This document shows positions 3,133-38,780 of a stretch of 64,000 nucleotides of DNA, one piece after another. The notes beneath the pieces were generated by a model. It saw only the letters and a list, made by a program, of their open reading frames with translations, was not told the DNA's origin and searched no databases. Origin of the DNA: an uncultured Cytophagales bacterium (lineage in GTDB: Bacteria; Bacteroidota; Bacteroidia; Cytophagales; Thermonemataceae); assembly GCA_937911505.1 (NCBI GenBank), contig CALEMF010000014.1, positions 124,001 through 188,000 of the forward strand, read 5' to 3'. How positions within the stretch are numbered: position 1 is the stretch's first letter; each line of letters starts with the position of its first letter. Position numbers and translations under genes: made by a program.

Positions 3133-3167
3133 AAGGTAATTATTGTATAAATTCATATTTTACATCC

Positions 3168-3902
3168 ATGAGACATCTTATTGTTGATGTAGGCAATACA
3201 CTTTATAAAGCAAGTATTTTTGAGGCGTCTGATCAACAAGTAGCTATTGAAACCACCACTTGGCAATCTGTAATAGACTTTGCCCAAAAGTATGCACCCC
3301 AAAGAGGTATCGTAAGCTCTGTAAGAGAAAAAAACACCCCTCTTATACAGTCTCTTGACTCCCTTCTCTCTTATCCACTCTTATGGCTTGACTATACAAC
3401 TTCCCTTCCTATTACCAACGCTTACGACACACCTCATACATTAGGTATGGATCGCTTGGCTGGGGTTGTAGGAGCAAAAACGCTCTATCCAGAAAATAAT
3501 TGTTTGGTGATTGATGCAGGCACTTGTATTACTTACGATTTTATAGACGCCACTGGTGTATATCAAGGAGGCAGCATCGCCCCAGGTATTCGTATGCGTC
3601 TAGAAGCCATGCATACTTTTACAGCGAATTTACCCCTTCCCGATTGGAACCCGCAGACCTCACGACCCAGTTTAGTAAGTAAAAGTACAGAACAAGCGCT
3701 CATTAGCGGAGCTGCTAACGGCACGATTGCTGAAGCGGAACAAATCATTGCTACTTTTCAAGAACAATATGCTTCTACTCAGGTATTAGTTTGTGGAGGT
3801 GACCGTAATTTTTTTGAAAGTACAATAAAACATCCCATATTTGCAGTTCGTAACTTAGTATCGATAGGCTTAAATCGTATATTGGAACATAATGTCTTTT
3901 AA
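3168..3902 (+). CDS. coaX: Type III pantothenate kinase
   Basis: 244 residues. The first residues contain the phosphate-binding motif DVGNT; later come GMDRLAGVVGA and DAGTCITYD, and then GGSIAPG, all hallmarks of CoaX, the ASKHA-fold pantothenate kinase that starts coenzyme A synthesis. It begins 35 bases after hemE and overlaps the following outer-membrane protein gene by 11 bases, so it probably heads or lies within the envelope operon that runs to 7345. This pairing of coaX with an outer-membrane barrel and lptC is familiar from other Bacteroidota. Confidence 0.95.
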   Translation: MRHLIVDVGNTLYKASIFEASDQQVAIETTTWQSVIDFAQKYAPQRGIVSSVREKNTPLIQSLDSLLSYPLLWLDYTTSLPITNAYDTPHTLGMDRLAGVVGAKTLYPENNCLVIDAGTCITYDFIDATGVYQGGSIAPGIRMRLEAMHTFTANLPLPDWNPQTSRPSLVSKSTEQALISGAANGTIAEAEQIIATFQEQYASTQVLVCGGDRNFFESTIKHPIFAVRNLVSIGLNRILEHNVF

Positions 3903-5157
3903 AAAAACCAGCACCCTCTTTTTTATTTATTGGCTCACTATCCTTACTACACAAGGGCAGAACTCCCCCTTCTCTAGTATAGGAATAGGGAATATTAGAA
4001 GCAATGGTTACATAGCGCAAGATGGGCTAGCAGGAGCTGGTATCGCGCTAAGCAATCCTCTTTACGTAAATAATCTCAATCCAGCTTTACTTACAGCCAA
4101 TAGACAGTTTATTTTTGAAGTAGGTGTTTCTGGACAGTTACAACAACTCAGTGACGATCAATTCACACAGCAAGACTTCGCCGCTAATTTAGGTTACTTT
4201 GGTTTATTATTACCCCTTTCCAAAAAATGGAGTGGACAAATTGGCCTTAAGCCTTACAGCACTGTTGAATACGAAATTAACACTAGTGAGCCTATCCCGG
4301 GGAGTGATTTTAATGCTGACTACACTTATATTGGTAGTGGTGGGCTAAATAGTTTTTTCTTTTCTAATGGGGTCAATGTTGGAAAAAACCTAAACCTAGG
4401 CCTTAAAATCAATTATATTTTTGGGGCGCTTGAAACAGAAAGTATCTCACAAGTACGTACAGGTGGCTTCAACACCAATGTAGTATCTTTTGAAAGACTC
4501 AATGTAGGCGACTTGATCTTTACACCGGCTATTTCTTACACTTATCCGCTCAACGATAAAACCAATCTAAGTGCGGGTATCGTATATGATGTTGGTGTGC
4601 AAGCAAACACTAGGCAGTTTAGATCAGTAGAACGACGTGACCCACTAGGTGGCCCGCTCTCTATTGACACGCTTGTGGTAGATGAAGCAACTTCTATTTT
4701 TCTTCCTCAAAAACTACAAGCAGGGCTAGCCTATGAAAAACGTAACCGTTGGGCCATTGCAGCAGACTTTACCTGGCAACCTTGGCAAGAATATAGAGAG
4801 TCTGACGAAGAAGTAGGTTTACAAAATACGATAGGGGTAGCATTGGGGGGACAATATACGCCCGATTTCGGAGCTGTAAAAGGCTTGTTTAAGCGCGCTA
4901 CTTACAGAGTTGGGGTACGCTATCAACAACTTCCTATAGAAGTGAATGGTAACCAAGTAAATGATGTTGGCATCAATTTTGGCACTTCTCTACCTATAGG
5001 TGTTAATCAACTAGCTACCACCTACTTGCATTTGGGGTTTGCTGTTGGACAAAGGGGAAGTCTCAGCGAGAACGACCTTCAAGAAAGATATATCCAGTTT
5101 TCTTTGGGAGCCTCCTTAAGCGATCTCCTTTGGTTTAGACGTCCAAAAATTAATTAA
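3892..5157 (+). CDS. Outer-membrane beta-barrel protein (FadL/OmpP1-like)
   Basis: 421 residues with a signal peptide (hydrophobic stretch FFIYWLTILTTQGQ), then GAGIALSNPLYVNNLNPA, a pattern seen in FadL/PorV-like barrels of Bacteroidota, followed by many alternating amphipathic strands. The protein ends in LWFRRPKIN and not in a classical terminal Phe. It overlaps coaX by 11 bases and is followed 17 bases later by the TPR gene. Its position before an LptC-like gene suggests a role in outer-membrane transport or biogenesis, but no substrate can be read from the sequence. Confidence 0.75.
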   Translation: MSFKKTSTLFFIYWLTILTTQGQNSPFSSIGIGNIRSNGYIAQDGLAGAGIALSNPLYVNNLNPALLTANRQFIFEVGVSGQLQQLSDDQFTQQDFAANLGYFGLLLPLSKKWSGQIGLKPYSTVEYEINTSEPIPGSDFNADYTYIGSGGLNSFFFSNGVNVGKNLNLGLKINYIFGALETESISQVRTGGFNTNVVSFERLNVGDLIFTPAISYTYPLNDKTNLSAGIVYDVGVQANTRQFRSVERRDPLGGPLSIDTLVVDEATSIFLPQKLQAGLAYEKRNRWAIAADFTWQPWQEYRESDEEVGLQNTIGVALGGQYTPDFGAVKGLFKRATYRVGVRYQQLPIEVNGNQVNDVGINFGTSLPIGVNQLATTYLHLGFAVGQRGSLSENDLQERYIQFSLGASLSDLLWFRRPKIN

Positions 5158-35797: not shown

Positions 35798-36373
35798 CTA
35801 TTGGCTATAAGCCTTTAAATGCTCGTAGAGCCGATGCACAGGTAGCCCCATAACGTTGAAGTAAGAGCCTTCGATACGCTCCACACCCACCATACCCATC
35901 CATTCTTGTGCACCATAGCTGCCCGCTTTGTCGAAAGGCGCATAGGTATCTATATAATAATAAATTTCTTCGGTAGTTAAGGTTTTGAAGGTTACATAGG
36001 TCAAGTCGCTAAAAGCTGTTTGCTGTGCTTTTGTATACAGACAAACGCCTGTAATTACTTCGTGTACGCTACCAGATAGCCGTTGTAGCATTTCTACTGC
36101 TTCAGCGCGATCTTTGGGCTTGTTGAGTACGCTACCATTATGTACCACAATGGTATCTGCTGCAATGACCAACTCTTCTTGTATTTCTTCCTCAAAAGCT
36201 ACCGCTTTTTTCTTTGCTAAAAATGTAGGAATTTCATTGGTAGGCATCTCTTCAGGGAAGTGCTCTTCTACATTTTTTGACTTCACCTCAAAAGTAAGTC
36301 CTAAAGCTTGTAGTAGCTGTTGCCTACGTGGCGATTGCGAGGCAAGGATAATGGGTCGGGATATATTGAGCAT
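35798..36373 (-). CDS. maf: Maf-family nucleotide pyrophosphatase
   Basis: 191 residues from the ATG at 36373 (MLNISRPIILASQSPRR); the frame extends further but without support. Maf motifs: ILASQSPRRQQLL at the N-terminus, the catalytic Asp in VIAADTIV, and SYGAQEWMG near the C-terminus. It hydrolyses non-canonical or modified dTTP/UTP-type nucleotides and limits their incorporation. A decayed copy of its first codons is found on the same strand at about 37812-37863, on the far side of the protease gene. Confidence 0.92.
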   Translation of the reverse strand: MLNISRPIILASQSPRRQQLLQALGLTFEVKSKNVEEHFPEEMPTNEIPTFLAKKKAVAFEEEIQEELVIAADTIVVHNGSVLNKPKDRAEAVEMLQRLSGSVHEVITGVCLYTKAQQTAFSDLTYVTFKTLTTEEIYYYIDTYAPFDKAGSYGAQEWMGMVGVERIEGSYFNVMGLPVHRLYEHLKAYSQ

Positions 36374-36670
36374 AAACCAATTTAAGTCGTATTGTACCAC
36401 TTCGCATGCTAATATAATAGGCATTTCCGAAGAAACCACTTGGTGTCAGTTTTTATTTAAGGTGTACAGCACGCAGCATAGGCATTAAAGTCAATACATT
36501 TCAACTACTCAAAATCTTTCAAAAGTACTTAACCTTCTGGTACAGACGAAATGTTCTTTCTAGGACGTTGAACGCCCTGTTTAGAGGCTAAAATATCTTG
36601 TTTAAACAGCTTGATTGCTTTTATAGGCATTAATGTTGTGCCTTTATATATACTCATACACAATACATTT
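36374..36670. other. 297-base spacer between maf and the protease gene
   Basis: No recognised gene. It must contain the promoters of maf (minus) and the protease (plus), but no TAnnTTTG box was found. A 42-codon open frame on the minus strand (36529-36657, MSIYKGTTLM at its start and ISSVPEG at its end) has a protein-like, basic composition, but no evidence of expression. TAGGCATTAA occurs twice (near 36480 and 36624). Confidence 0.4.
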
Positions 36671-37771
36671 ATGAAATCACTCATTACAATACTCTGTTGC
36701 TTGAGTTTCTTATCGATAGAGCTATGCGCACAACAAGACCATAATAGTACGTTTTACAACTTTACTATACAAAAAAAAGTAGCCTGTACTAGTGTAAAAG
36801 ACCAGTATTACTCTTCTACTTGTTGGAGTTTTGCGAGTTTATCTTTTTTAGAAAGTGAATTGATAAAAGCTGGAAAAGCACCCATCGATTTATCAGAAAT
36901 GTACATTGCCCGCTATTCATACCTCGATAAGGTACGTTTGCATTTAGCCTCGAAAGGAACGAACTTTTTTACACCAGGTGGGCAGTACCATGATGTTATG
37001 CGAGTTAGTAGAAAGTATGGCTTGGTGCCCGAATCGGTATACACAGGGCGCGTAGGAGATGAAACTGGCCATGATCATGAGAAGCTAGACACCTTAATGG
37101 AGCGATACGTAAAAAAAATGCTCAAAGCAGGAAAAACAAGCCCTACCGACCGCGATTGGAAGTACATCAACAAACTTTTAGATAAATATTTAGGTGAAGT
37201 ACCCAGCAGTTTTACTTATGAAGGGAAAACATACACGCCCCTCTCCTTTATGAATGATTACTTACAAATCAATCCAGACGATTATATTGAAATCACCTCG
37301 TATACGCATCATCCTTATTATCAAGCATTCATTTTGGAAGATCAATACAATTGGACGCAAGATCTCTACTACAACCTTCCACTAGAAGAATTTATACAAG
37401 TAGTTGATGAGGCCTTAGCCAAAGGCTATACTGTAGGGTGGGATGGCGATGTATCCGAAGAGACCTTCCTTCACGAAAGAGGCATTGCCTATTTGCCTAC
37501 TTCCCAACAAGCAGTCACCACTGCGTTACGTCAAAAAACATATGAAGACAAGTCTTCTAAAATTGATCATTTAATGCATATTGTGGGAATTGCTAATGAT
37601 AAATTTGGCAAACAGTGGTATTGGGTCAAAAACTCTTGGGGTCAATCGTTGAATCCTGAAGGTGGTTATTTGTACATGTCTGCGCCTTACTTGAAATTAA
37701 AGACAGTCGCTTTGATCGTCAATAAAAAAGCACTATCTAAAGACATTCGCGCAAAACTGAAAGTCGATTGA
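36671..37771 (+). CDS. Exported C1-family (bleomycin-hydrolase-like) cysteine protease
   Basis: 366 residues from the ATG at 36671, chosen because it yields a good signal peptide (MKSLITILCCLSFLSIELCA, cleavage before QQ). Catalytic residues in order: Gln45 (oxyanion), Cys51 in SSTCWSFASL, His in HLMHIVGI and Asn in WVKNSWGQ. The CWSFA context and the long middle region are those of peptidase C1B/bleomycin hydrolase more than papain. Bleomycin hydrolases are usually cytosolic; this one would be exported. It is flanked by maf and a maf remnant, both on the other strand. Confidence 0.85.
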   Translation: MKSLITILCCLSFLSIELCAQQDHNSTFYNFTIQKKVACTSVKDQYYSSTCWSFASLSFLESELIKAGKAPIDLSEMYIARYSYLDKVRLHLASKGTNFFTPGGQYHDVMRVSRKYGLVPESVYTGRVGDETGHDHEKLDTLMERYVKKMLKAGKTSPTDRDWKYINKLLDKYLGEVPSSFTYEGKTYTPLSFMNDYLQINPDDYIEITSYTHHPYYQAFILEDQYNWTQDLYYNLPLEEFIQVVDEALAKGYTVGWDGDVSEETFLHERGIAYLPTSQQAVTTALRQKTYEDKSSKIDHLMHIVGIANDKFGKQWYWVKNSWGQSLNPEGGYLYMSAPYLKLKTVALIVNKKALSKDIRAKLKVD

Positions 37772-37811: not shown

Positions 37812-37863
37812 GGCTACGAGATAGCTGTGAGGCATAGGTAATAGGTCGAGGGATGTTGGGCAT
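37812..37863 (-). pseudogene. Decayed fragment of the maf start
   Basis: Read on the minus strand from the ATG at 37863, this codes MPNIPRPITYASQLSRS, close to the maf start MLNISRPIILASQSPRR. The 52-base block aligns without gaps to 36322-36373 with 35 identities by my hand count. Similarity fades upstream of the ATG and after about 17-21 codons. The frame runs to a stop near 37687 as a 58-residue sequence lacking the Maf catalytic parts. It is best explained as a remnant of a partial maf duplication. Confidence 0.6.
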
Positions 37864-37949
37864 AGATAATTACAATTTTTACAGATAGTGTAGCTGGATA
37901 TAATATTTCAATTAAACTAAGTTGTATACATTTCTGGTGTTCATATACG

Positions 37950-38780
37950 TTAATTACTCAATCTATAGTAGGGTAATTGTATGGTAGGCTCGAAACCAAG
38001 TTTTTGGGCTAGTTGAAGCGAACCCGTATTCTCTAGTCGGCAAGCCCAAACAGGTGTATAGTTTTTTTGTAAGCAGTAGTCAATAAGGCGGCTGCAAGTG
38101 TACTGTGCCAGTCCTCTTCCACGAAACTTTGGTACAGTTTCCATACCGAGTTCAAGCTTATCATCAATTAAAAACGCTGAAAAAGCGGTACAGGCAAGTG
38201 TATTATCGACATAAGTGCTATAACCCATTCCATTAGCAAGAAAATCGGCTGCACCATTCCAGAATTTTGAAGGAACCACTGCTCCTTCCATAGTAGCATA
38301 CTCTTTTTGGGTGGTTTCTATAACTGCCCCTACGATACCTTCTAGCTTATTTTTAAAGGCTGCATATGCCTTAGGATTAAATTTGAAATTAACTCTCGTA
38401 TGTAGCGCTATAAGGTTTGAGGGAAAAGGGTGCTCATTTTCCGAGGGATGTACTAAGCAATCTGCCAGTAATTTTTTCAATGTACTATGCCAACCATTTG
38501 GGAACGCTTGCATCCACTCGTATGCCTGTCTATTCCCATTTGTATTTAGTGCATATTCCTTGAAAGCCTCATTAAAGTCTTCGTTATCATTTTTACCTAA
38601 TAAAAGGCTCATTCCATAGGGATGAACGATATAGAATGTACTAGGATTTTCTCTGTCATCAACATATACTTTCCCTGATATATGATGCTCAACTACTGCT
38701 CGTGCAAATAAGTGATTGATGGTGACAGGCTCAAGTGCTTCTATAACTTTAGGGTAGTTTGTTTTATCCAGTAAATCCAT
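37950..38780 (-). CDS. GNAT-family N-acetyltransferase
   Basis: 276 residues. The C-terminal third has the acetyl-CoA-binding region: ETVPKFRGRGLAQYTCSRL (the R-G-x-G-L/A loop) followed by NTGSLQLAQKLGFEP. The N-terminal part resembles the long GNAT_acetyltran group, whose substrate is not known. Expected to be cytoplasmic. A methyltransferase gene lies upstream on the same strand after 77 bases; the two may not be functionally linked. Confidence 0.82.
   Translation of the reverse strand: MDLLDKTNYPKVIEALEPVTINHLFARAVVEHHISGKVYVDDRENPSTFYIVHPYGMSLLLGKNDNEDFNEAFKEYALNTNGNRQAYEWMQAFPNGWHSTLKKLLADCLVHPSENEHPFPSNLIALHTRVNFKFNPKAYAAFKNKLEGIVGAVIETTQKEYATMEGAVVPSKFWNGAADFLANGMGYSTYVDNTLACTAFSAFLIDDKLELGMETVPKFRGRGLAQYTCSRLIDYCLQKNYTPVWACRLENTGSLQLAQKLGFEPTIQLPYYRLSN

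Follow-up and report, generated by a model that had tools for sequence, protein, structure and literature searches.

The stretch of 64,000 nucleotides analyzed here, referred to below as the window, carries an intact maf gene, the gene for an exported cysteine protease and a gene for a GNAT acetyltransferase (Table 1). Two further features, designated R and R', form a 53-bp direct repeat that is 68% identical, with 17 mismatches. R is the start of maf itself, and R' lies in the 178-base gap that separates the stop codons of the convergent protease and GNAT genes. The repeat encloses 1.44 kb of DNA with the protease gene, the region upstream of it and a hairpin that resembles a terminator. The enclosure of the protease gene between maf and a maf remnant, as described in the earlier note, is thus borne out. 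The interval between maf and the protease gene also contains three exact copies of the motif ATAGGCATTW within 216 bases (window positions 36417, 36478 and 36623, plus strand); with one mismatch allowed, the motif occurs 26 times in the window and 14 times in shuffles.

Table 1. Features at the maf-protease-GNAT locus (positions in the window)
Feature	Position	Strand	Description
maf, nucleoside-triphosphate pyrophosphatase family	35798..36373	-	Intact; Pfam PF02545, 210 bits; sole Maf gene of the genome
R	36324..36376	-	Functional copy: maf codons 1-17 and the 3 bases that precede the ATG; aligns without gaps to 37814-37866 at 40.7 bits, with sharp ends
Exported C1-family cysteine protease	36671..37771	+	PF03051 / PF00112; catalytic motifs CWSFA, HIV and NSWG; between R and R'
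Hairpin, likely transcription terminator, at protease stop codon	37761..37795	+	Inverted repeat; 9-bp stem in fold
R'	37814..37866	-	Decayed copy: orphan piece of the 5' end of maf; not recognized by the Maf profile
GNAT acetyltransferase	37950..38780	-	PF12746 (GNAT_acetyltran); same strand as maf; stop 84 bases before R'

An ungapped, same-strand alignment of positions 37812-37863 with the maf start at 36322-36373 had been reported previously, and its 35 identities in 52 bases were reproduced, as were the two minus-strand peptides, MPNIPRPITYASQLSRS encoded by the block and MLNISRPIILASQSPRR by the maf start. Nine of the 17 mismatches in this 52-base block fall at third codon positions. In the best segment, R against R', 14 of the 17 mismatches are transitions, against a composition-corrected expected fraction of 0.37 (P = 1.7e-4). 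The match ends sharply on both sides; no gapped extension, upstream or downstream, beat shuffled sequence, and weak collinear pieces outside R and R' were at the level of the shuffles.

A chance resemblance of the maf start to the 178-base gap between the convergent genes has to be weighed. Counted by matches (+1/-1), the best segment has a score of 19, a value that six same-strand pairs in the window equal or exceed. Three of the six are spaced by no more than 2 kb, and one of these three is a genuine pair of ABC-transporter paralogues. For an unplanned search of the whole window, the match count by itself is therefore borderline. Moreover, by plain alignment score the maf start only ties for best among 1436 comparisons of gene starts with the 178-base gap. 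These counts speak for chance; the mismatch pattern and the controls speak against it. Under a generic transition-aware log-odds score, R and R' match at 40.7 bits, whereas in distance-matched controls, for which 828 kb of the same genome were read as regions, no same-strand pair reached 32 bits at spacings of 30-32 kb or 60-62 kb. The earlier note had proposed a comparison with shuffled sequence, and the match withstood it: the dinucleotide-shuffled gap gave a maximum of 27.6 bits against maf in 3000 shuffles (extrapolated P ~3e-8). A control with reversed real DNA gave a maximum of 29.3 bits among 1268 pairs of gaps and gene starts. No third copy was found; at 24 bits or more, R and R' match only each other on both strands of the 828 kb, and the two lie close together. 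The transition excess, the score relative to the controls and shuffles, and the uniqueness of the pair together show that R and R' are homologous, and the chance explanation is largely refuted and very improbable. As a matter of method, it is the mismatch pattern, that is, the excess of transitions, together with distance-matched controls from the same genome, that resolves a match as weak as 35 of 52. A second weak local repeat on the same strand, with a score of 20, was seen within 1 kb elsewhere in the window (3160-3193 and 4091-4124).

The genome gave a single maf match, and R' agrees with the start of this gene at 34 of 51 bases but with any of 58 other maf starts at no more than 24 of 51; for comparison, R and the maf start of the nearest relative agree at 31 of 51. 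Residues I9, L10, S14, P15 and R17 are near-invariant in the maf starts of 50 relatives, with the qualification that the pattern used to find those starts forced S14, P15 and R17, while I9 and L10 were unforced. All five are changed in R' (I9T, L10Y, S14L, P15S and R17S), and variable residues particular to the organism's own Maf are kept (N3, I4, R6, P7 and Q13, that is, N-I-x-R-P and Q). The Maf profile, run on R', gave no match. The closeness to the organism's own maf, the loss of conserved residues and the missing profile signal lead us to regard R' as a 5' fragment of the lineage's own maf, which, as judged from these comparisons, was made after the split from all genera compared and has been released from selection. 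Together with the above-chance score, this agrees with the description of the block as a decayed copy of the maf start. The copy was also said to lack the catalytic part, and indeed R' is maf-like only through codon 17. A functional Maf protein (PF02545) was rejected as an identity for R', as the SxSPRR motif, which here reads ASQLSRS, and the full domain are absent.

Could R' have some other function, as a short open reading frame or as an RNA or terminator element that borrowed the maf start? An ATG is present and the frame that starts in R' is open for 58 codons, but this frame continues into the protease gene in antisense orientation and is not a credible gene. Further, no Rfam family was matched, the fold of the gap is not unusual (z = -1.45), the conserved residues are lost and the site lies between two converging genes. 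We regard a functional R' as extremely improbable; R' is an ordinary, old scrap of a gene that marks a local rearrangement and probably lacks a function of its own. Its age follows from its divergence from R of about 0.47 substitutions per site (K2P, calculated by hand from the mismatch counts).

The segment between the repeats contains the protease gene as its only open reading frame, and no integrase, IS or other mobile gene was seen there; nor was a target site seen or a phage source of the segment found. The protease gene has a GC content of 0.389, the contigs read have 0.38-0.41, and the protease takes its place in a tree among proteins from the same family and order. Horizontal acquisition of the protease was rejected as unsupported by the tree or by GC, there being no foreign signature. 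It had been suggested that a segment carrying the protease entered or duplicated at this site and left the partial maf copy. The decayed copy stands, and entry of the segment is possible; the native-like GC and tree position of the protease lend it no independent support. In its explicit form, this explanation takes the protease gene as a discrete segment inserted at the maf start, by a site-specific or homology-assisted event, so that R' would be the original maf start, left beside a GNAT gene that would once have been the immediate upstream neighbor of maf, in the same orientation. In keeping with such an insertion, the protease gene with its promoter region and terminator hairpin is exactly what R and R' enclose, the GNAT and maf genes are co-oriented, and the GNAT stop codon lies 84 bases before R'. 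The native-looking composition and phylogeny of the protease, the missing recombinase, a flank that at 53 bp is too long for a transposon target duplication, and the failure to find GNAT-maf adjacency in relatives (the GNAT protein having no real relatives in the class) argue against it, and we consider it somewhat doubtful.

The gene order of relatives does not help to decide the matter. The relatives compared were genomes of the family and a set of order-level genomes, all of other genera, and within this sample no synteny of maf, protease or GNAT was found. A maf gene was found in 35 of 39 relatives, as a single gene in each, and none of their maf loci examined had a protease beside maf. 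Because the neighborhoods of maf differ completely, the missing protease is uninformative on insertion. The protease itself is present in 36 of 342 genomes, never within 1.5 kb of maf in the relatives' loci examined.

It is the GNAT gene, and not the protease gene, that is the taxonomically isolated gene of the locus. In 295 genomes of the class we found only weak domain matches to it, and no full-length relative, either in these genomes or in 39 nearer relatives; its best relatives on plasmids are from Bacillaceae, at about 27% identity. The GNAT gene is a candidate for horizontal acquisition, and these matches, together with the position of R' 84 bases from the GNAT stop codon, would fit the arrival of foreign DNA carrying the GNAT gene rather than the protease gene. 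R' would then be the junction, formed through short homology or through a duplication bordering a maf-protease pair that was already in place. However, no repeat was found at the far side of the GNAT gene, and its GC content of 0.394 is native-like; we think this course of events unlikely.

We favor as quite probable, from what the sequence retains, that R' is a duplicate of maf codons 1-17, without function and in decay, that arose by a local rearrangement after the split from every genus compared. Such a rearrangement would have left the maf start, as a 53-base direct repeat, on either side of the 1.44-kb protease-bearing segment. The simplest route would be one short-homology event, in which DNA carrying the maf 5' stretch integrates by a single crossover or by one-sided homology; integration would reconstitute maf on one side of the incoming DNA and leave the 5' scrap stranded on the other. 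Alternatively, a tandem duplication followed by deletion or trimming would give the same end picture, and the sequence does not separate the two routes. We infer the event as such, as well as its direction and its age. Some observations count against a decaying duplicate: despite its age, R' has no indel in its 53 bases, a slight surprise if the DNA is dead; the homology does not continue past the block; and there is no mobile gene, and the protease looks native.

Known systems offer partial parallels. Like gene-fragment pseudogenes truncated by partial duplication, R' is a short piece of a neighboring intact gene, on the same strand, without the catalytic part and with conserved residues lost; it differs in being very short (53 bp), old and sharp-ended, and is otherwise in no way unusual. 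In an E. coli experiment, where a circle sharing short homology integrated by single crossover, partial lacZ duplications of 109-950 bp were the main product (PMC3240628). The resemblance to single-crossover partial duplication, or homology-facilitated illegitimate recombination (PMC3240628; merodiploids, PMC3784515), lies in an incoming or repeated segment that ends up with part of the target gene directly repeated on its two sides. The repeats in those studies, however, are 109-950 bp or larger and fresh, whereas R and R' are 53 bp long and 68% identical, and the event is deduced from sequence. Finally, genomic islets that form when an integrase duplicates its att site at a gene end likewise have this end repeated on both sides of a segment, with the gene restored on one side, but the present locus has no recombinase or mobile gene, and the segment holds one native-looking gene. 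An integrase-borne islet was accordingly rejected, as the protease open reading frame stands alone in the segment with no recombinase gene.

A more general idea, which we hold to be most improbable, is that the maf start took up a single-gene cassette of promoter, exported protease and terminator through a recombination process that rebuilds its target gene, and that similar cassette captures recur in the genome. Other repeats were noted in the course of the analysis. Direct repeats whose core is the palindrome-like ATATACATAATGTGTATAT form a run (G000:C49:77494-81959) that separates unrelated single genes (HTH, beta-lactamase-fold, cNMP-binding and S41 peptidase) and resembles an intergenic repeat family or a cassette-like array. 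A near-identical direct repeat of 82 bases (G000:C14:65495-65576 and 67451-67532) flanks a single open reading frame (65857-67314) and overlaps the end of the preceding gene. Upstream of a minus-strand gene, TGTGGATAA/TTATCCACA repeats are clustered (G000:C46:16250-16690); they are DnaA-box-like, and the site might be the replication origin.

The finding is an ordinary one, with insertion of the protease segment as a possible story behind it. Its significance is small: for a Cytophagales-like lineage that has been sparsely sampled, it puts a single old, local rearrangement on record.
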